Positions 27,321-36,534 of a DNA stretch of 64,000 bases are shown piece by piece; position 1 is the stretch's first letter, and every line of letters begins with the position of its first letter. Under the pieces are notes generated by a model that was given only the letters and a program-made list of their open reading frames with translations, had not been told where the DNA came from and searched no databases. The DNA lies in the NCBI GenBank assembly GCA_021297895.1, contig JAJTHN010000019.1, positions 1 to 64,000 on the forward strand, in the 5' to 3' direction. The position numbers were made by a program, and so were the translations under genes. The stretch is from Phycisphaeraceae bacterium. GTDB taxonomy: Bacteria; Planctomycetota; Phycisphaerae; Phycisphaerales; UBA1924.

Positions 27321-29513
27321 ATGCCGATGGGAGCAGCCGGATGGATTCGGCGGTTGGCGGGCGGGGGTGCGGCCGGGACGGCCAAGGCGCTGGCGGACGC
27401 GATCGTGTCCGCGCGCGCGGCGGGGGAAGATGTTGACTCGCTTTCGGCGGATCTGATCGAGTTGATGGCCCGCGGGCGCGAGCGGGGCGGCGTGCTGGCG
27501 CGGGTGAGCGGGGGAGGCAGCGGTGATGATCGGGCGGTGGAGTGTGAGGTGCTGCGGGTGTGGCCCGCGCTGACGCGCGATGCGCGAGAGGCCGCGGTCG
27601 CGGTCGGGGGCGAGCGGCTGGAGGCCGAGCTGCGTGCGCGGCTTGGCGGGGCGACGGTGGCCGAGCGCATCGGGGCGCTGGAGGTGATCGGACAAGCGGG
27701 GATGCACGCGCTGGCGGTGGCGGTCGCCTCGAGCCTCGCCGATGGCGATGCGACGGTGGGTGATGCGGCGGAGCGCACGTTGGCGGCGCTGTGCGGCTCG
27801 GAGGGTGTGCTGGCGGCGGAGGATGGCCGCGGCGTGCGCGGGGTGATGGCGGGGCTGGATCGCGCGGCGGAGTTGTTCGACCGGCATCGGCGTGCATCGG
27901 TGATCGGGCTGTGGATGCGGATGGCGACGACGGTGAGCGACAGCGCGGTGAGCGTGGGCGATCGGCGCAACTGGCTGGATGATGAGCAGCACCCGGCCCA
28001 ACTTGTGGCGCGCAGCCGTCTGCGGCGTGCGGCGGAGGAGGAGGTCGGTGCGGGGCTGGTCAGCGGCGCGGCGTTCGTGTGGATCAAGTACCCGGGGCTG
28101 GCGTCGGCGGCGCGGGATCGGCTGCTGGGGCCGCGGGGCCGCGGTGTGGACCTGACGTGGGTGCTGGAGCGATCGCACCTGGTGCTCAATCCTCGTCGGC
28201 GAGCGGCGCTCAGCGCCGGTGTGGCGGCTGAGACCGGCGGTGTGGCGGGGCCGGAGTTCTGGGGCGGCGGTGTGGAGCGCGGCGTGGGGGCGGTGCGGTG
28301 GGTGTGTGCGCAGGCGATGGGGGCACGCGGACGGGATGCGGCGCTGGCGCCGATGCTGGCCGATGAGCGTGTGGAAGTGCGGCTGGCGCTGGTGCGCGAA
28401 GGCGGTCGGCTGGCGCGGCGACCGGCGTGCCTAGTTGATGCGTGCTTCGATGCCGACGGGCGTGTGGCGCGATCGGCAACGCTGGAACTGCTGGCGACGA
28501 GCCGGCGCGAGGCGTTGCCGGAGGGCGAGCGTCGGCGGCTGATTCGGCTGCTGCGTCGCAGCCCGCACGCGGCGGTGCGGTCGATCGCGGAGCAGGCCTG
28601 GCGCGGGCGGGCGAGCGCGGCCGAGCACGGGTCGGGTGTTGGGGCCATCGCGGGTGCGGCGGACGGCGTGCGCGGCGGGGTCGCTGAGGCCGTGCTGAGC
28701 ACCGTGCCGGCGCGGATGATGGAGTTGCGGAGCGTGCAGGGGCGCGAGGCGGGCGCGGGGCATGATGCGCACGATGCCCGGCGGCTGCTGGAGATTTCAT
28801 CGCGTGGGCTGGGCGGGCGGTATGCGCGGGCGATCGCGGAGTTTGTGCGGGGTGTGGATGCCGCGGCGTGGCCGATGAGCGCGGCGACGGGGGCATCGGT
28901 GCTCGGGGAGAGCGATGAGTCTTCGGTGGTGGCGACGCTGGTGGAGGTGACGCGTGCGACCGGGCCGGCGACAGCGAGGCTGCGGGCCAACGCGATCGAC
29001 GCGCTGACGCGGCACATTCGGAGGTGTCAGGGTGCCTCGGCAGAGGTGCGGGCGGCGCTGCTGGATGCGGCGGGGCGGAGCGGAGTTGGCGATGGGTCTG
29101 GCGACGGTGGACTTGGCGATCAGGGAGTGTCGGCGGCATCGGGCGGTGAGCATCGCCCGCGCGCTGCGGCGGCGCGGGGGCTGATCATCGCGGGTGATCT
29201 GATGGGGGACGGGACGCTGATGCGAGCGGGGACCGCGACGCTGCAGGCGATGCTGCTCGATGATCGGGTGATGCAGCGTGTGGCGGGGGCGTGGTGTGCC
29301 GAGCGGGTGGCCTGGCGGCTTGCGGCACGCGATGGGGCGCACGCGTCGATCGCCGCGACGGTGGGGCGGCTGGCGTCGGATGAGGGAGAGAGCCGGGCGG
29401 TGCGAGCGCGTGCGCGGCGGGCGGCGGAGAGGCTGCTGAGCGAAGTGCGCGCGGCGTGGGGAGCGAAGGCGGGGGGCGTGGCGCACTGGCAGAGCGGCAA
29501 AGTGGCGCAGTGA
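27321..29513 (+). CDS. Alanine-rich helical-repeat protein
   Basis: 730 aa, Ala/Arg/Gly-rich, no signal peptide. Much of it consists of short amphipathic helices with patterns such as A-L-x-x-M-L-A-D-E-R-V-E-V-R-L-A-L-V-R-E-G and V-D-A-C-F-D-A-D-G-R-V-A-R-S-A-T-L-E-L-L, reminiscent of HEAT repeats. AGGA 5 bases before the ATG at 27321 supports the start. The last 11 codons (V-A-H-W-Q-S-G-K-V-A-Q) and the stop are encoded by octamer repeats like those at 17628, so the native C-terminus may have been replaced. A long frame on the opposite strand is a composition shadow. Function unknown; repeat proteins of this kind usually mediate binding. Confidence 0.65.
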   Translation: MPMGAAGWIRRLAGGGAAGTAKALADAIVSARAAGEDVDSLSADLIELMARGRERGGVLARVSGGGSGDDRAVECEVLRVWPALTRDAREAAVAVGGERLEAELRARLGGATVAERIGALEVIGQAGMHALAVAVASSLADGDATVGDAAERTLAALCGSEGVLAAEDGRGVRGVMAGLDRAAELFDRHRRASVIGLWMRMATTVSDSAVSVGDRRNWLDDEQHPAQLVARSRLRRAAEEEVGAGLVSGAAFVWIKYPGLASAARDRLLGPRGRGVDLTWVLERSHLVLNPRRRAALSAGVAAETGGVAGPEFWGGGVERGVGAVRWVCAQAMGARGRDAALAPMLADERVEVRLALVREGGRLARRPACLVDACFDADGRVARSATLELLATSRREALPEGERRRLIRLLRRSPHAAVRSIAEQAWRGRASAAEHGSGVGAIAGAADGVRGGVAEAVLSTVPARMMELRSVQGREAGAGHDAHDARRLLEISSRGLGGRYARAIAEFVRGVDAAAWPMSAATGASVLGESDESSVVATLVEVTRATGPATARLRANAIDALTRHIRRCQGASAEVRAALLDAAGRSGVGDGSGDGGLGDQGVSAASGGEHRPRAAAARGLIIAGDLMGDGTLMRAGTATLQAMLLDDRVMQRVAGAWCAERVAWRLAARDGAHASIAATVGRLASDEGESRAVRARARRAAERLLSEVRAAWGAKAGGVAHWQSGKVAQ
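29479..29510. repeat. Octamer repeat at gene 3' end
   Basis: Four units TGGCGCAC, TGGCAGAG, CGGCAAAG, TGGCGCAG run directly into the TGA stop of the helical-repeat gene. Same unit as at 17628-17691. Confidence 0.75.
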
Positions 29514-29595
29514 GAAGTTGAGGATCTGGCGGATGCTGACGATGAGGTTCTGCCGAGAGCCGCGGGTGGCGGCGCGCGATGGCTGAGCGTGCTGG

Positions 29596-29690
29596 CCGGA
29601 GGAGGGTCGAGTCGCGAGCGCGTCGGAGAGGATGAGGTCGGGCTGCTGATCGGATGCGAGCGCTCGCTCCGCCTCGGAGACTTAGTACCT
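29596..29690 (-). repeat. Degenerate family A repeat near second dockerin gene
   Basis: Read on the minus strand it contains AAGTCTCCGAGGCGGAGCGA, then CCGACCTCATCCTCTCCGAC, similar to the tail of copies 3 and 4. The stem part is not preserved. It lies about 45 bp past the stop of the minus-strand dockerin gene, the same relative place as copy 4. Confidence 0.4.
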
Positions 29691-29734
29691 GAGCCTGCAG
29701 GACATGGGCCAGGATCGAGCTGCGCCTCGTGCGG

Positions 29735-30601
29735 TTACTGGCAGCCGAGGAAGAACGCGGCGAAGAAGGCGGAGAAGTCGCCGTTGTCGAGGGTGTTGTC
29801 GGGGCCGCCGCCGGTGAGGATGGTTTCGCCATCGGTGTTGGCGATGTCCGCCGCGAGGCGCGTGGGGTCGGACTCTGGCGCGAAGAAGGCGGTGAAGAAG
29901 GCGATGAAGTCGCCGTTATCGAGGGCGTTGTCGGACCCGCCGAGGATGGGGTCGGTCAGGCGTGTTTCGCCGTCGGTGTTGGCGATGTCCGCGGGGGAGC
30001 ACGCGGCGATGGTCATGGTGAGATTGTCGATGTAGAAGTCGTTGGGGAAGGTGGAGGTGTTGAGATTGCGGACGGCAACGACGGAGGGGCCGGCGGTGAG
30101 CGGGGCGGTCCAGAGGGCGGAGTGGGCGATCCAGAGCTGCGTGCCGTTGGGCAGTGTGGTCGGGGTGCCGATGAGACTGCCGTTGAGTTGCCATTGGAGC
30201 CTGGCGGGTCCGCCGGCGACGGCGGTGGCGGCGTGCAGAGTGAGTCGGTAGGTGCGGCCGGGCAGGGGGTTGACGGTGGCGAACCAGATGCGCTGGTTGG
30301 GAACCGTCGAGCCGTTGATGACCATCATGAGCACGGAGCCGGGGATGGAGGGCGGCGGGTTGACGAAGGAGCCGTTGAAGGATGAGCCGTTGGAGCGGAC
30401 GGTGTATTGGCCCTCGCAGCAGTTGCCGCCGGAGGAGAAGGAGTAATCGGAGGAGAAGCCGGTGTTGCCGAGTTCGAAGTTGCCGTTGGGCAGGAGGTTC
30501 TGCGCGACCGCGGCGGGGGTGAGGGGGGTGAGGAGACAGAGCGATGCCAATGCGGCGGAGGCGCGTGAAGTGATGCGGCGCGGTGTGGAGTTGAGCGGCA
30601 C
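29735..30601 (-). CDS. Secreted GC-type dockerin protein with jelly-roll-like domain
   Basis: 288 aa from a GTG start with GGAG 7 bases upstream. Signal peptide at about residues 10-35 ('LASLCLLTPLTPAAVAQ'). Mature start N-L-L-P-N-G-N-F-E-L-G followed by a beta-rich domain (to about residue 200) ending V-R-N-L-N ... F-Y-I-D-N-L-T-M, as in carbohydrate-binding or PEP-CTERM-type jelly-roll domains. Two GC-type dockerin units follow, each with A-D-I-A-N-T-D-G-E-T and D-N-G-D-F-x-A-F-F, ending G-C-Q. The frame extends upstream to 30817 without a credible signal peptide, so the GTG was chosen. Divergent from the copper operon. Confidence 0.8.
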   Translation of the reverse strand: MPLNSTPRRITSRASAALASLCLLTPLTPAAVAQNLLPNGNFELGNTGFSSDYSFSSGGNCCEGQYTVRSNGSSFNGSFVNPPPSIPGSVLMMVINGSTVPNQRIWFATVNPLPGRTYRLTLHAATAVAGGPARLQWQLNGSLIGTPTTLPNGTQLWIAHSALWTAPLTAGPSVVAVRNLNTSTFPNDFYIDNLTMTIAACSPADIANTDGETRLTDPILGGSDNALDNGDFIAFFTAFFAPESDPTRLAADIANTDGETILTGGGPDNTLDNGDFSAFFAAFFLGCQ

Positions 30602-30781
30602 GTGATGCTCCGGGGGATTGGGTCGCGCGGGATGAGCGCGGCGGGTGGAAGGGCGCGTGGTGCGGGAGGTGGGGAATCCGTCGCGGGCTTCGTTGAGTGT
30701 ACAAGCAGGCTTCGGGCCGCCGAGGTGAGGGGGAAGTGGCGAGTGGATCGGTGTGAACGGGCCGGAAGCGGGAGCAACCAA

Positions 30782-30802
30782 TATACCCCGTGGGGGTATA
30801 AT
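30782..30802 (+). promoter_or_regulatory. CsoR operator overlapping the copper-operon -10 box
   Basis: TATACCCC-GTG-GGGGTATA (30782-30800) matches the G-tract dyad of copper-responsive CsoR operators. The right arm runs into a perfect TATAAT at 30797-30802. Transcription would begin about 30808-30809, i.e. at the csoR start codon. No good -35 hexamer is visible at 17 bp, which fits a weak or activator-independent leaderless promoter. Binding by the adjacent CsoR would block the -10 box; copper would release it. Confidence 0.85.
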
Positions 30803-30807
30803 CGTGC

Positions 30808-31272
30808 ATGAGTACACGTGGCAAAAAGCAGGGTGAGAAGGGCGGCAAGTCGCGGAATGGTGTGGGTGCGGGTGCGGGTGAGGCGCGATCGGTGGGCAGT
30901 GACGCCGCGTGCGGGTGTGGCTGTGCGGTGGGCCGAGGGGGAGAGGCTGAAGTTGATCGCGGGAGTGGCCGCGTCGGGCCGGGCGGTGTGGCGCACGGGG
31001 TGGATGCGGAGATCAAGCGGCGGAATCTGGCGCAGTTGCGGCGGATCGAGGGGCAGGTTCGGGGCGTGGCGGCGATGGTGGAGGGGGATCGGTACTGCGC
31101 GGATGTGATCACGCAGATCGCGGCGGTGCGGGCGTCGTTGCTGGCGGTTGCGGGGAATGTGCTGCGGAATCACCTTGAGCACTGTGCCGCGGCGGCGATG
31201 GAGCGGCGCGGGCCGGACCGCGAGGCGATGATCGACGAGGTGCTGGACCTGGTGTCGAAGGTGTCGCGGTGA
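30808..31272 (+). CDS. csoR: CsoR-family copper-sensing repressor
   Basis: 154 aa. Core (about residues 64-154) is the all-helical CsoR/FrmR fold: L-R-R-I-E-G-Q-V-R-G-V then Cys97, His122 and Cys126, with the spacing (25 and 29) of the Cu(I)-binding Cys-His-Cys triad of known CsoR proteins. The first ~63 residues are an unusual Gly/Arg/Lys-rich extension with Cys35, Cys37 and Cys39 (A-C-G-C-G-C-A). The ATG at 30808 has no Shine-Dalgarno and sits where the transcript should begin, so leaderless translation is likely; a shorter start is possible but has no better signal. First gene of an operon with a copper-type lipoprotein, a barrel and CopA. Confidence 0.92.
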   Translation: MSTRGKKQGEKGGKSRNGVGAGAGEARSVGSDAACGCGCAVGRGGEAEVDRGSGRVGPGGVAHGVDAEIKRRNLAQLRRIEGQVRGVAAMVEGDRYCADVITQIAAVRASLLAVAGNVLRNHLEHCAAAAMERRGPDREAMIDEVLDLVSKVSR

Positions 31273-31347
31273 GGCGGGGCGCGGGTGCGGCGTGACGGCT
31301 GTGGCGATCCGGGAGTGAGCGCGAGTTCTCATGCAAAGGAGAAGCAC

Positions 31348-31731
31348 ATGAAGTTGAATCAACGGCGGATCGGCGTCGCGGTTGTCTGGACGGTGATGCT
31401 GGCTGGCGCGGCCGGCTTTGCGGTGTTGGGCGGTTGCGGGGTGGAGCGGCCGCGGGCGGATGCGTCGGTGAACGAGGCGATCGCGGACGATCGGACGATC
31501 GAGGGGCGCGAGGCGGTGCTGACGGTGTTCGGGATGAGTTGTCCGCTGTGCGCGAACAACGTCGACAACACGCTCAAGGAGGTGCCCGGGGTTGAGACTG
31601 TGTCGGTGGACATGGGCAGCGGCGAGGTGCGCGTGGGGCTTGACGGGAAGACGCCGGTGACGCGCCGGCAGCTTGCGCGGGCGGTTGATCGGAGCGGGTT
31701 CAGCCTGAAGAAGGTGGAGGTGCGGCCGTGA
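31348..31731 (+). CDS. HMA-domain lipoprotein (periplasmic copper chaperone-like)
   Basis: 127 aa. Lipoprotein signal peptide with lipobox L-G-G-C (Cys30). A ~25-residue acidic linker leads to a heavy-metal-associated domain (about 55-127) with G-M-S-C-P-L-C-A-N-N-V (Cys65, Cys68), V-P-G-V-E-T-V-S-V-D and A-V-D-R-S-G-F. AAGGAG 6 bases before the ATG fixes the start. HMA domains carry Cu(I) or similar soft metals; most are cytoplasmic (CopZ) or periplasmic (MerP), and membrane-tethered ones are less common. Its stop overlaps the GTG start of the barrel gene (GTGA), so the two are coupled. Confidence 0.88.
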   Translation: MKLNQRRIGVAVVWTVMLAGAAGFAVLGGCGVERPRADASVNEAIADDRTIEGREAVLTVFGMSCPLCANNVDNTLKEVPGVETVSVDMGSGEVRVGLDGKTPVTRRQLARAVDRSGFSLKKVEVRP

Positions 31732-32570
31732 GTCGGAGCGCGTGCGCGATCGCGGCGGCGATGGTGGCGGTCGCTGGGGCGAGCGTGCCGGTGATGGCGC
31801 AGGAGGCGACGCACACGCCCGCGGCGACGCAGCCGGCGGCGGGGCGGCTGTACATGCGGCAGAAGGTTCAGTATGTGTCGTTCGGCGATGATCCCTCGCC
31901 GGAGGCGCGTGACATCACCAAGGTCGTGTCGACGACAACGCTGACCTACGGGCTGCGTCGGGACACTTCGCTGAGTCTGGAGGTGCCGATGGCGTACGCC
32001 GCGGAGGTGGCGCACGGCCGGCACGCGACGCGGCGGTTCGGGGTCAACGACATTTCGTTGTCGATCAAGCACCGGCCGTGGCAGTTGGACCTGAACCCGG
32101 TGGACTCGCTGCGGCTGGCGGTGGTCGGCGGTGTGGAGGTACCGAGCGGGGATGGGGACTTCTCGAGCCACTCATTCGACCCGTTCGTCGGGGCGGTGTT
32201 CACGGCGATTCTCGGGCGGCACGGCGTGAACCAGTCGATCGTGTACAAGTTCAACACCGGCGGCGACGCGTTCAACACGCGGGCGGGCGATGGGCCGGAT
32301 GATGCGGTTCGGTTCGACACTTCGTACCTGTTTCGGCTTTCGCCGGTGGAGTACTCGGCCGCGTCTGAGGCGGCGACGTATGTCACTCTGGAGGCAAACG
32401 GGTTGTACGAGACCAATGGTGATGTGGAGGTGATCGCGGGGCCGGGGATCTTGTACGAGGCCAGGACGTTCGCGCTCGAGGCGACGATCGGGCTGCCGAT
32501 GGTGCAGGAGGTGCGCGAGCGGCCGGAGGTGGATCTTGTCGTGACGCTTGGACTGCGGATTCTGTTCTAA
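31728..32570 (+). CDS. Outer-membrane beta-barrel protein of the copper operon
   Basis: 280 aa from a GTG start overlapping the previous stop. Signal peptide at residues 1-25 (A-G-A-S-V-P-V-M-A-Q). The rest alternates amphipathic strands: R-F-G-V-N-D-I-S-L-S-I-K-H-R, L-R-L-A-V-V-G-G-V-E-V-P-S-G-D-G-D, and a final V-T-L-G-L-R-I-L-F ending in Phe, as in outer-membrane porins. The G-D-I-x-L ... G-x-x-x-P-S-G-D pattern recalls the MetA/phenol-degradation transporter-like family. A role in copper passage across the outer membrane is inferred from operon position. Confidence 0.75.
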   Translation: MSRSACAIAAAMVAVAGASVPVMAQEATHTPAATQPAAGRLYMRQKVQYVSFGDDPSPEARDITKVVSTTTLTYGLRRDTSLSLEVPMAYAAEVAHGRHATRRFGVNDISLSIKHRPWQLDLNPVDSLRLAVVGGVEVPSGDGDFSSHSFDPFVGAVFTAILGRHGVNQSIVYKFNTGGDAFNTRAGDGPDDAVRFDTSYLFRLSPVEYSAASEAATYVTLEANGLYETNGDVEVIAGPGILYEARTFALEATIGLPMVQEVRERPEVDLVVTLGLRILF

Positions 32571-32597
32571 GGGCCTGTTCGATCTGGAGCCATAACG

Positions 32598-35219
32598 ATG
32601 CGTGCGGGCGAGGAGGACCAGCGAGGGGCAACAGGATTGGGTGGCGGTGGCGGTACAGGAATCGGGATTGATGCGAGTGCTGGTGGAGCTGGCGGCCGGC
32701 GCGTTGAGATGGCGATCGGCGGGATGTCGTGCGCGGCGTGCGCGGCGCACGTGCAGCGCGTGCTGGAAAAGCAGCCCGGGGTGACATCGGCGAGCGTGAA
32801 CTTCGCGACGCGCATGGCGACGCTCGGGGTCGATGCGGGTTCGGCGGATGTTGCGGAGTTGGTGCGGGCGGTTGATCGCGCGGGGTATTCGGCGGAGGTG
32901 GCGGGGGAGAGCGGAGCGAGGCGAGCGGAAGGAGATGGAGGCTCCGAAGGGGCGAGTGGCGATGCGGCCAGCGATGCGGCCAGCGATGCGGGTGGTAATG
33001 CGGGTGGCGACGCTGGCGAGGCGGCAGTACAGGCTGATGCGGAGGATGCCGAGGATGCGCTGCTGGCGCGGCTGGCGCAGGACGGCGCGGTTGAGGAACG
33101 GAGGCTCCGCCGGCGGGTGCTGATCGGGGCTGCGCTCGGTGCGCCGGTGGTGGTGCTTGCGATGTCACACGGCATGCTCGCGGGTGTTGGAGGAGTCGGG
33201 GCGTGGTTGTCGGGGCTCGGCGGGGCGTGGGTGCAGGCGGTGCTGACGTTCGGGGTGCTCGTTCTCGCCGGGGGCTCGATGTTCGCGGGGGCGTGGCGGA
33301 GCGTGCTGCGGCGGGTTGCGAACATGGACACGCTGGTGGCGATGGGGACGGGGATCGCGTTCGTGTACTCGCTGGTTCAGGTCATCATCGCATCCGCGGG
33401 CGCGGACCGTGGGGCGCACGCGGGGCATGGGCCGACGGTGTACTTCGAGGCGGCGGCGGTGATCGTGGTGCTCGTGCTCGTTGGTCGGCTGCTCGAGCGG
33501 CGCGCGACGGCGCGGACATCGTCGGCGATCGGGGGGCTGGTGCGGCTGACGCCGATGGGGGTGATGGTGGAGCGCGGCGGGACGGAGGTGGCCGTACGGG
33601 CGTCGCGCGTGCGAGTTGGAGAGATCGTGATTGTGCGGCCGGGCCAGCGGGTCGGCGTTGATGGGGTGATCGAGACGGGGCGGTCCGACGTTGATGAGTC
33701 TGCGCTCACGGGCGAGGCGGCGCTGGTGGTTCGCGGCGTTGGCGAGCGGGCGTTCGCGGGAACGCTCAACCGCACGGGCGTGCTGCGGGTGCGGGCGTCG
33801 GCGGTGGGGGCGGGCACGGCGATGGGGCGGGTGGTCCGGCTTGTGCGAGAGGCTCAGGGGACCGCGGCGCCGATCGCGCGGCTGGTGGATCGGGTCAGCG
33901 CGGTGTTCGTGCCGATGGTGATGGGGCTCGCCGCGCTGAGTTTCGCGGCGTGGATGGTGTGGGGGCCGGCGGGAGAGCGGCTGGCGATGGGGGTGCACGC
34001 CGCGGTGAGCGTGCTGATCATCGCGTGTCCGTGCGCCCTGGGGCTGGCGACGCCGACGGCGATCATGGTGGGGACGGGGATCGGTGCGCGACGGGGCATG
34101 CTTGTGTCCAGCGCGGCGGCTCTTGAGGCGGCGGCGGGGTTGCATGTTGTCGCGTTCGACAAGACCGGGACGCTGACGCGCGGGCGGCCGCGGGTCGAGC
34201 GTGTGGCCGCGGCGGAGGGGTGGACGCGCTCGGCGGTGCTGGGGCTTGCGGCGGCGGCGGAGCGGGGCAGCGAGCATCCGTTGGCGTGTGCGATTGTGCG
34301 GGCGGCGATGGAAGAGCGGGGGGCGGTGCGGGGGGCGGCGGCGGGGTCGGCGGAGGGGGTGGCGGCGGGGGCTGAAGGGAGCGAGTTGGCGGTCGTGTCT
34401 TCGCGCATCGAGCCGGGCGTTGGGGTGTATGCCGAGGTTGCCGCGGGCGCGACTGCGGACGGAGGTGATGGTCGTGTGCGGCGGGTTGGTGTCGGGCGGC
34501 GGGCGGTGGTGGGCGAGGATGCTTCGGGGTCGGCGGTGGCGCTGGAGCGGCAGGTCGAGGCGATGGCCGCGGCGGGGCTGACGATCGCGTGGGTCGCGGT
34601 TGATGGGCGTGCCGCGGGGGTGATCGGGCTTGGTGATGAGGTGCGGGCGTCTGCGCACGAGGCGGTGAGCAGGTTGCGCGGGATGGGTGTGCGCGTGATG
34701 ATGCTCACGGGCGACCATGAGCGAGCCGCGGCGGCGGTGGGGGTGTTGACGGGGATCGACGAGATCCGCGCTGGCATGACGCCCCCGGACAAGGCGCGCG
34801 TCATCGGTGAGTTGCGCGGGCGGGGGCTGAGGGTCGGGTTCGTCGGCGATGGGATCAACGATGCGCCGGCGCTCGCCGCGGCGGATGTCGGGATCGCGAT
34901 GAGCAGCGGGACGGACCTGGCGCGGGCGTCGGCGGGGATCACACTGGTGCGGCCCGGGGGCGAGGCGGATCTGCGGGGCGTGGCGGGCGCGATCGAGTTG
35001 TCGCGCGCGACGCTGCGGGCGATTCGGCAGAACTTGTTCTGGGCGTCGTGTTACAACGTTCTGGCGATCCCGGTCGCGGCGGGCGCGCTGTACCCGCTGA
35101 CGGGATGGATGCTCTCGCCGATGATCGCCAGTGCGGCGATGGCGCTGAGCAGCGTGAGCGTGGTGGCGAACAGCCTGCGGCTTGGGTGGGGACGGGGGCG
35201 GAGTGCGGCCGCAGAGTGA
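32598..35219 (+). CDS. copA: Copper-exporting P1B-type ATPase
   Basis: 873 aa. N-terminal HMA domain with G-M-S-C-A-A-C (Cys45, Cys48), then an Ala/Asp/Gly-rich linker with a repeated S-D-A-A/G motif (about 110-145), and the eight-helix P1B core. Seen: the C-P-C metal site in A-C-P-C-A-L-G-L-A-T-P (about residues 476-478), the phosphorylation site D-K-T-G-T (Asp521), S-E-H-P-L, T-G-E-A in the actuator domain, and G-D-G-I-N-D-A-P-A-L (about 753). These mark a Cu(I) pump. GGAG 8 bases before the ATG. Last gene of the CsoR operon, 27 bp after the barrel. Confidence 0.96.
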   Translation: MRAGEEDQRGATGLGGGGGTGIGIDASAGGAGGRRVEMAIGGMSCAACAAHVQRVLEKQPGVTSASVNFATRMATLGVDAGSADVAELVRAVDRAGYSAEVAGESGARRAEGDGGSEGASGDAASDAASDAGGNAGGDAGEAAVQADAEDAEDALLARLAQDGAVEERRLRRRVLIGAALGAPVVVLAMSHGMLAGVGGVGAWLSGLGGAWVQAVLTFGVLVLAGGSMFAGAWRSVLRRVANMDTLVAMGTGIAFVYSLVQVIIASAGADRGAHAGHGPTVYFEAAAVIVVLVLVGRLLERRATARTSSAIGGLVRLTPMGVMVERGGTEVAVRASRVRVGEIVIVRPGQRVGVDGVIETGRSDVDESALTGEAALVVRGVGERAFAGTLNRTGVLRVRASAVGAGTAMGRVVRLVREAQGTAAPIARLVDRVSAVFVPMVMGLAALSFAAWMVWGPAGERLAMGVHAAVSVLIIACPCALGLATPTAIMVGTGIGARRGMLVSSAAALEAAAGLHVVAFDKTGTLTRGRPRVERVAAAEGWTRSAVLGLAAAAERGSEHPLACAIVRAAMEERGAVRGAAAGSAEGVAAGAEGSELAVVSSRIEPGVGVYAEVAAGATADGGDGRVRRVGVGRRAVVGEDASGSAVALERQVEAMAAAGLTIAWVAVDGRAAGVIGLGDEVRASAHEAVSRLRGMGVRVMMLTGDHERAAAAVGVLTGIDEIRAGMTPPDKARVIGELRGRGLRVGFVGDGINDAPALAAADVGIAMSSGTDLARASAGITLVRPGGEADLRGVAGAIELSRATLRAIRQNLFWASCYNVLAIPVAAGALYPLTGWMLSPMIASAAMALSSVSVVANSLRLGWGRGRSAAAE

Positions 35220-35343
35220 TGCGGGGAGCCAGTGGCTCGATGTGGGTTGCGGGCGATGGCGACGCGGACCATCGCGGAGCCGCATGGCCCGGCGTTCAGG
35301 TGCATCGCGATGCGTGCCGGGCGGCGATTGTGTCGCGTACGTG

Positions 35344-36534
35344 TCAGCGTTCGACCGGACCGACGATCGGCGGAATGGTCACCGGTGATGGGGCCTGGCC
35401 GAACGGCGGCGCATCGCGGAGGAACGCGCGGCGGATCTTCGGCGGGTTCACGGGCCGGTGTTCGCGGCCCGGCAGCACGGGCGTCGCGGCCAGCCGCGTG
35501 AGGGTTTCGGCAGAGCCGACGACCTGAGCGAAGGCGGTGTATTGGCCGTCGAGCCGGGCGGTTTCCTCGCGCGAAAGAGCGATGAAGAACTGGGAGCCCG
35601 CGGTGTTGGGGTCGCGATCGCGTGCCATGCTCAGCACGCCGAAGTCGTGCGGGAGCGTGCTGGGCTCAAGCGGCAGTTCGTAGCCGGGGCCGCCCTCGCC
35701 GGTGGCGGTGGGATCGCCGGCCTGAATGACAAAGCCGCGCTGCGGGTTCGATCGGCCGACGGCGACGACACGGTGGAAAGCGATGTCGGTGTAGAAGCCG
35801 CCCTCGACGAGATGGCGGAAGTTCCATGCGGTGTTCGGCGCGGCATCGGGCCGGAGGCGGATCTCGAGCGTGCCCGCATCGGTTTCCATGATGACGTGTC
35901 GATCGACATACGTGCGTACGCCGGTGAACGTGCGCTCGCGGGCCTGGCGGCCGGGCGGATACACGGCGACGGGAAGACGCGGGTCGCGCTCATCGAGGAC
36001 GGCGCGAAGCGGCGTGAGCATGGGCTGAAGCACGACGGGCGGGCCGATGGGTGTGTGCCGGGGTGCCTGGTCGCCCTCGGGGTTGGCCGGCGTGTCGGTG
36101 GGCAGGGCCATGAGCTGCGCGAAGAGAACGGGACGGGTGATGAGCGGTGCTGCGGGCGCGGCCGCGGGGTCGGGTGACGCGTCGGGCGTGGCCGGGGCTG
36201 TGCGTTCGATGCCCTTCCAGATCTGCGGCAGCAGCGCGGCGAGGTCCACGCGGCCCGGCAGTGCGGCGGCGCGCGCGATGGGCTCGGCGGTATCGGGCAG
36301 GTGGAGCCAGACTTCAAGGCGGGGCGTGCCGCTGGTCTCGGGCGGGAGGGCGACGGTCATCGGGATCGCGCGGTCGACGCCGACGTAGAGACGATCGGGC
36401 GTGAGTTGTGCGCGGGCGGTCGTCGGCGACACCAGAAGGAGTGCGCAGGTCAGGATCAGCGGGGCGAGCGCGGGTGCCGCGGCGGAGAGGGCTGCTCGTG
36501 CGGAGCGGGCAAGGACATGTCGGATGGAGGCCAT
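35344..36534 (-). CDS. Exported cyclophilin-type peptidyl-prolyl isomerase
   Basis: 396 aa. Signal peptide (about 1-42: 'APLILTCALLLVSPTTARAQ'). Residues 45-195 form a non-conserved N-terminal domain. The cyclophilin domain follows (about 205-375): V-I-M-E-T-D-A-G-T-L-E-I-R-L, P-N-T-A-W-N-F, F-Y-T-D-I-A-F-H-R-V, G-F-V-I-Q-A-G-D-P-T, G-V-L-S-M-A-R, S-Q-F-F-I-A-L. The active-site Arg in F-H-R and the Q-x-G-D-P motif are present. The ATG at 36534 has GAGG nearby; the open frame reaches 36702. Likely folds proteins in the periplasm. Convergent with copA. Confidence 0.88.
   Translation of the reverse strand: MASIRHVLARSARAALSAAAPALAPLILTCALLLVSPTTARAQLTPDRLYVGVDRAIPMTVALPPETSGTPRLEVWLHLPDTAEPIARAAALPGRVDLAALLPQIWKGIERTAPATPDASPDPAAAPAAPLITRPVLFAQLMALPTDTPANPEGDQAPRHTPIGPPVVLQPMLTPLRAVLDERDPRLPVAVYPPGRQARERTFTGVRTYVDRHVIMETDAGTLEIRLRPDAAPNTAWNFRHLVEGGFYTDIAFHRVVAVGRSNPQRGFVIQAGDPTATGEGGPGYELPLEPSTLPHDFGVLSMARDRDPNTAGSQFFIALSREETARLDGQYTAFAQVVGSAETLTRLAATPVLPGREHRPVNPPKIRRAFLRDAPPFGQAPSPVTIPPIVGPVER

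Follow-up and report, generated by a model that had tools for sequence, protein, structure and literature searches.

Does the CsoR operator at this locus sit on the promoter of its own, leaderless gene, or does the csoR transcript begin somewhere else? The question arises because a G-rich inverted repeat runs straight into a TATAAT hexamer, with the csoR start codon close behind. The window is the whole 64,000-nucleotide stretch of DNA that was analysed. We consider it very likely, judging from its sequence and from comparison with other genomes, that the locus is an autoregulated copper-efflux operon switch in which the operator lies on the -10 element and csoR is leaderless or nearly so. The features concerned are these:

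29735 to ~30601, minus strand: divergent gene whose product has a GC-type dockerin domain (NF041540)
30782 to 30800, no strand assigned: predicted CsoR operator, a G-tract dyad
30797 to 30802, plus strand: -10 hexamer TATAAT, its TATA common to the right arm of the operator; TANNNT 5-9 bases before an ATG is strongly enriched genome-wide
30803 to 30807, plus strand: discriminator CGTGC, the 5 bases from the -10 to the start codon
30808 to 31272, plus strand: csoR, 154 aa, Cu(I)-type CsoR with a ~70-aa N-terminal extension (PF02583, PDB matches, alignments of relatives)
31335 to 31341, plus strand: Shine-Dalgarno sequence AAAGGAG of the second gene
31348 to 31731, plus strand: HMA-domain protein with a lipoprotein-like signal, putatively an extracytoplasmic CopZ-like protein (PF00403, E 1.7e-12; lipobox by eye)
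31728 to 32570, plus strand: open reading frame for a 280-aa protein, putatively outer-membrane-like in location
32598 to 35219, plus strand: CopA-type Cu P1B ATPase (TIGR01511, 500 bits against a cut-off of 397; TIGR01525, 537 against 346)

The dyad reads TATACCCC-GTG-GGGGTATA, with perfect 8-bp arms (30782-30789 and 30793-30800) on either side of a 3-base centre (30790-30792). A sequence-only reading of this DNA had described it as running directly into TATAAT, which is right to the base. It has the form of a CsoR box, TATACCC..GGGTATA, an inverted repeat of A/T-flanked C/G tracts upstream of csoR. With up to 3 mismatches allowed, the 64 kb window contains a single match to TATACCCCNNNGGGGTATA, where 100 shuffles gave 0.01 on average, and the csoR site is the sole match in the 3.48 Mb genome. 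Together these figures rule out a chance dyad, and the latter also rules out a second copy of the operator elsewhere in the genome. On the minus strand the left arm reads TATATT, which would allow a weak bidirectional promoter.

The csoR ATG occupies 30808-30810, separated from TATAAT by 5 bases; the same reading had it begin 6 bases later, which is correct when its first base is counted from the last base of the hexamer. Its claim that no Shine-Dalgarno sequence precedes csoR also holds: the stretch 4-17 bases upstream of the ATG has no AGGAG-like motif, and the sole G-rich run before it is the operator's own GGGGG, which ends 11 bases upstream. TATAAT-N5-ATG therefore has the layout by which leaderless genes are recognised, a -10 placed 5-9 bases before the ATG without a Shine-Dalgarno sequence. 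Genome-wide, 5 TATAAT hexamers have an ATG at a gap of 1-30 bases, and only at csoR is that gap 5 bases. From the spacing and the scans described below, the predicted start of the csoR transcript is 30808, give or take 1-2 bases. A riboswitch or other known RNA is ruled out by the lack of any Rfam match in 29000-36000, and a tRNA scan of the window found none.

The identification of the gene product as CsoR is borne out by its family match (PF02583, E 6.8e-25, 87.7 bits against a cut-off of 22.8), by its ligand residues and by the copper genes downstream. Its best PDB matches are solved CsoRs (4m1p, 4adz, 2hh7), with which it shares the core domain and with which its C-x24-H-x3-C motif (RYC...NHLEHC) aligns; we take these C-H-C residues to be the Cu(I) ligands. 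Unlike the solved proteins, it carries the N-terminal extension with a CxC motif; of the three, 4adz reaches furthest into this extension and aligns only from query residue 61. Among 23 other matches in relatives, 10 have alignments that start at residue 6-15 of the csoR product, and the extension is common to most members of its family. Because relatives share the extension, 30808 is supported as the true csoR start, and a downstream start is ruled out since homologues cover this region.

The CxC motif (ACGCGC) lies within residues 1-68 (30808-31010). A C[GA]C motif 19-41 residues before the domain is found in 16 of the 22 C-H-C CsoRs of this family but in only 2 of 62 other Planctomycetota CsoR open reading frames, one of which (L179) is of the same extended type; a similar tail with C[GA]C occurs in an Acidobacteriota record (L105). 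This tail may add a metal-binding or thiol site to the protein, and its conservation in these CsoRs may be more novel than the layout of the switch.

Linked genes for Cu(I) export and chaperoning are present downstream of csoR, in the form of the HMA protein and the CopA-type ATPase. Between them, the gene for the 280-aa protein, for which neither Pfam nor NCBIfam gave a family match, has a start codon overlapping the end of the HMA gene. By gene order and predicted function, csoR heads a copper operon of HMA lipoprotein, outer-membrane-like protein and CopA ATPase. The HMA copper-binding domain appears to sit outside the cytoplasm, on a predicted lipoprotein, in contrast to ordinary CopZ.

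In the proposed switch, a CsoR tetramer would occupy the single dyad at 30782-30800 when copper is absent, covering the -10 element and blocking RNA polymerase. Cu(I) bound at the C-H-C site would release CsoR, and polymerase would then start on the csoR start codon or one or two bases away, and the mRNA would be leaderless or nearly so. On this mRNA csoR would be read without a Shine-Dalgarno sequence, and the HMA gene next to it from an ordinary one. Binding by CsoR, release by Cu(I), the exact 5' end and co-transcription of the operon are the steps that we infer.

An arrangement of this kind is known from experiment. For csoR of the soil bacterium Bradyrhizobium liaoningense CCNWSX0360, the promoter data presented in PMC5057107 place the transcription start on the A of the ATG by RACE, and the 19-bp CsoR box given there, TATACCCCTACCGGGTATA, overlaps the -10. 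Compared directly with that box, the window operator is equal at 15 of 19 bases, and the near identity with a RACE-mapped site supports what the sequence-only reading had proposed, an operator on the -10 of a probably leaderless csoR. The two loci differ in their surroundings: csoR and cueA of B. liaoningense diverge from a bidirectional promoter, according to that paper, whereas the copper genes of the window (HMA lipoprotein, outer-membrane-like protein and copA) are co-directional with csoR, and the divergent neighbour is the dockerin gene rather than cueA. A second parallel is the nickel operon nreAXY of Mesorhizobium, in which NreA is leaderless by 5'-RACE in the results given in PMC12724321. 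As at our locus, a CsoR/RcnR-family repressor stands first in the operon with its operator dyad inside the core promoter; unlike our locus, the repressor belongs to the Ni-responsive NreA clade and its dyad, TATCC..GGATA, lies in the -35/-10 spacer and shares no bases with TATAAT (details as presented in PMC12724321). The authors of that study discuss an advantage under stress. The open-access literature searched yielded no paper on a CsoR operator in Planctomycetes and no description of a cross-phylum survey of CsoR layout. In the M. tuberculosis leaderless paper, PMC3898074, the sole match to csoR was an author name.

The -10-to-ATG arrangement is not peculiar to csoR: about one in ten called genes shares the spacing in a 431 kb sample, which covers 12% of the genome at a GC content of 67.4%. 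The gene caller used was crude (length and GC3), and its 291 called genes, 269 of them with an ATG, do not include csoR itself. In 30 of these 269 genes, 5-9 bases separate the end of a TANNNT hexamer from the first ATG, with modes at six bases (11 genes) and five (9 genes) over a background of 0.47 per position at 11-40 bases; at five and six bases together there are 20 genes where 0.9 would be expected (P ~4e-20). A five-base Shine-Dalgarno core near the first ATG is present in only 31 of the 269. Because of the TANNNT peak and the few Shine-Dalgarno cores in this sample, leaderless or near-leaderless genes are probably common in the genome and the csoR spacing typical of them; nucleotide biases had already suggested leaderless genes in planctomycetes, for one species, in PMC5397173. 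The -10 of the 30 leaderless-like genes favours TANNCT, with C as the fifth base in 22, and TTG at a 17-18 base spacer accompanies 3 of them. The csoR promoter has no recognisable -35, an ordinary state here because leaderless-like genes rarely have one. None of the 30 has more than 4 of 6 matches to the E. coli -10 consensus, so the csoR TATAAT is unusually close to it, probably because the operator arm supplies TATA.

Beyond this genome, a scan for ATACCCCNNNGGGGTATAAT across 84,980 species, each represented by one genome, returned at least 119 stretches and at least 124 sites. The pattern itself imposes TATAAT, and 4 of the 124 listed sites lie too near the end of their locus, leaving 120 for the spacing histogram. 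Among these 120 listed sites, ATG after TATAAT peaks at six bases (11 sites against 2.6 expected, P 9e-5). A CsoR gene lies within 400 bases of 49 of the matches listed, and 12 of the 49 are leaderless-like, with an ATG or GTG 6-10 bases on, in the CsoR frame and without a Shine-Dalgarno sequence; these are what is left of 14 CsoR-adjacent listed sites with some open frame's start codon 4-10 bases after TATAAT, two (L081, L133) having been dropped since their start in the CsoR frame comes later and has a Shine-Dalgarno sequence. By phylum, as labelled from the sequence records, the leaderless-like share among listed sites is 6/7 in Patescibacteria, 4/12 in Actinobacteria in the broad sense, 1/1 in Chloroflexi and 1/1 in Spirochaetales; it is 0/19 in Bacillota, 0/4 in Planctomycetota and 0/5 in others. 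None of the 12 has a spacing of exactly 5 bases. Two further sites (L073, L088) have the operator-TATAAT-ATG layout, with no Shine-Dalgarno sequence, at the head of CopA-like genes starting with a GMTCA(S/A)C metal-binding motif.

In Planctomycetota genomes, 86 open reading frames with a CsoR domain were collected (duplicates L166 and L174 dropped, L021 and L024 without a CsoR domain, G176:C94 left out). A dyad was counted if it lay within 300 bases of the CsoR domain, and a gene was called leaderless-like if its ATG fell -7 to +12 bases from the dyad end without a Shine-Dalgarno sequence. Thirty-five of the 86 have a dyad, and 12 of the 35 are leaderless-like, L151 and L204 being excluded since an ATG with a Shine-Dalgarno sequence follows closely. 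The window's own family gave a divided answer to the survey that the sequence-only reading had proposed, for the same dyad-TATAAT-ATG spacing in related genomes: 6 of its 11 dyad-bearing genes are leaderless-like and 5 are leadered. Besides the window gene, the six comprise G229 (ATG 6 bases after TATTGT), G028 (6 after TATTCT) and three genes (G021, G027, G321; loci L015, L016, L148) in which the csoR ATG lies inside the operator TACCCTTAGGGGGTATGGGTA, so that operator, start site and first codons overlap; in G021 and G027, TTGAC(A/C)-17-TACCCT, found by eye, puts +1 next to the ATG. The relative of highest identity, G032 (L013; 64% identity across residues 61-154), has retained the operator but is leadered, with a GTG start 34 bases after it and an SD-like GGAG. 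Tight operator-to-start spacing thus seems not to be conserved, given the 5 of 11 leadered genes, G032 among them. In two further genes, L018 (by eye) and L190, the promoter contains an NreA-like TATCC..GGATA dyad, and the gap from a TAGGTT to the ATG is 6 and 8 bases respectively. On this sequence comparison, csoR layouts like that of the window occur in other Planctomycetota, in Patescibacteria and Actinobacteria, and in a Chloroflexi and a Spirochaete.

The sequence-only reading went on to have transcription and translation start on the same base. A leaderless start remains probable, but one placed exactly on the A of the ATG is less certain: the gap of 5 bases falls one below the modal 6 among the cross-phylum matches listed. 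The operator could lie on the -10 as proposed while +1 falls 1-3 bases inside the ATG, with translation from a downstream GTG such as that at 30862: +1 usually lies 6-8 bases from the -10, the modal 6 of those listed matches would place it on the T of the ATG, and in-frame GTGs do exist further down csoR. However, a gap of 5 bases is itself a mode in the 431 kb sample, about as common as 6. Exactly 5 bases also separate the -10 from the ATG in three other planctomycete csoR-family genes (L185, L195, L197, of another family; after TATGGT or TATAGT), and the relatives aligning from residue 6-15 mark the extension as conserved coding sequence. We judge this alternative unlikely.

A transcript that starts upstream of the operator is in our estimate very unlikely; the dyad would then belong to a 5' leader, acting there both as binding site and as RNA hairpin, and csoR would be translated either without a Shine-Dalgarno sequence or by way of GGGGG. 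Such a transcript would fit the missing -35 of the proposed promoter and the greater distance of csoR from the operator in some relatives, and an 8-bp RNA hairpin is predicted for the dyad in a longer transcript (centroid structure). Against it, a scan for consensus sigma-70 promoters and terminators scored nothing and left 30500-31400 without a promoter, though it also misses the csoR -10; initiation would presumably be hindered, not helped, by a G-rich hairpin 7 bases ahead of the AUG; and TATAAT-N5-ATG is otherwise absent from the genome. A chance arrangement, with TATA simply part of the operator and with the AT after it and the ATG close by there by accident, is hardly credible, since the spacing falls on the genome's leaderless mode and similar layouts recur across phyla, even though the dyad forces 4 of the 6 bases of the -10 and leaves only AT free.

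The csoR switch, with its operator on the -10 of a leaderless or near-leaderless gene, is a new and well-supported example of an arrangement already known experimentally. It would extend a switch established in alpha-proteobacteria to a planctomycete-like genome, in an arrangement that, by sequence, recurs across several phyla, and the analysis gives evidence for frequent leaderless or near-leaderless genes in this genome; as a device, it would be a compact part for copper sensing. We put forward more tentatively, as a conjecture that we think somewhat doubtful, that CsoR-family repressors have repeatedly reached one layout in lineages tolerant of leaderless mRNAs: an operator merged with the -10 or spanning the start codon (as in G021, G027 and G321), a leaderless repressor gene first, and SD-led efflux genes behind. 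If this is true, the layout would be a general rule for the CsoR family rather than a set of scattered cases, and selection would have split the translation mode within the operon to set the ratio of repressor to pump when metal stress occurs.
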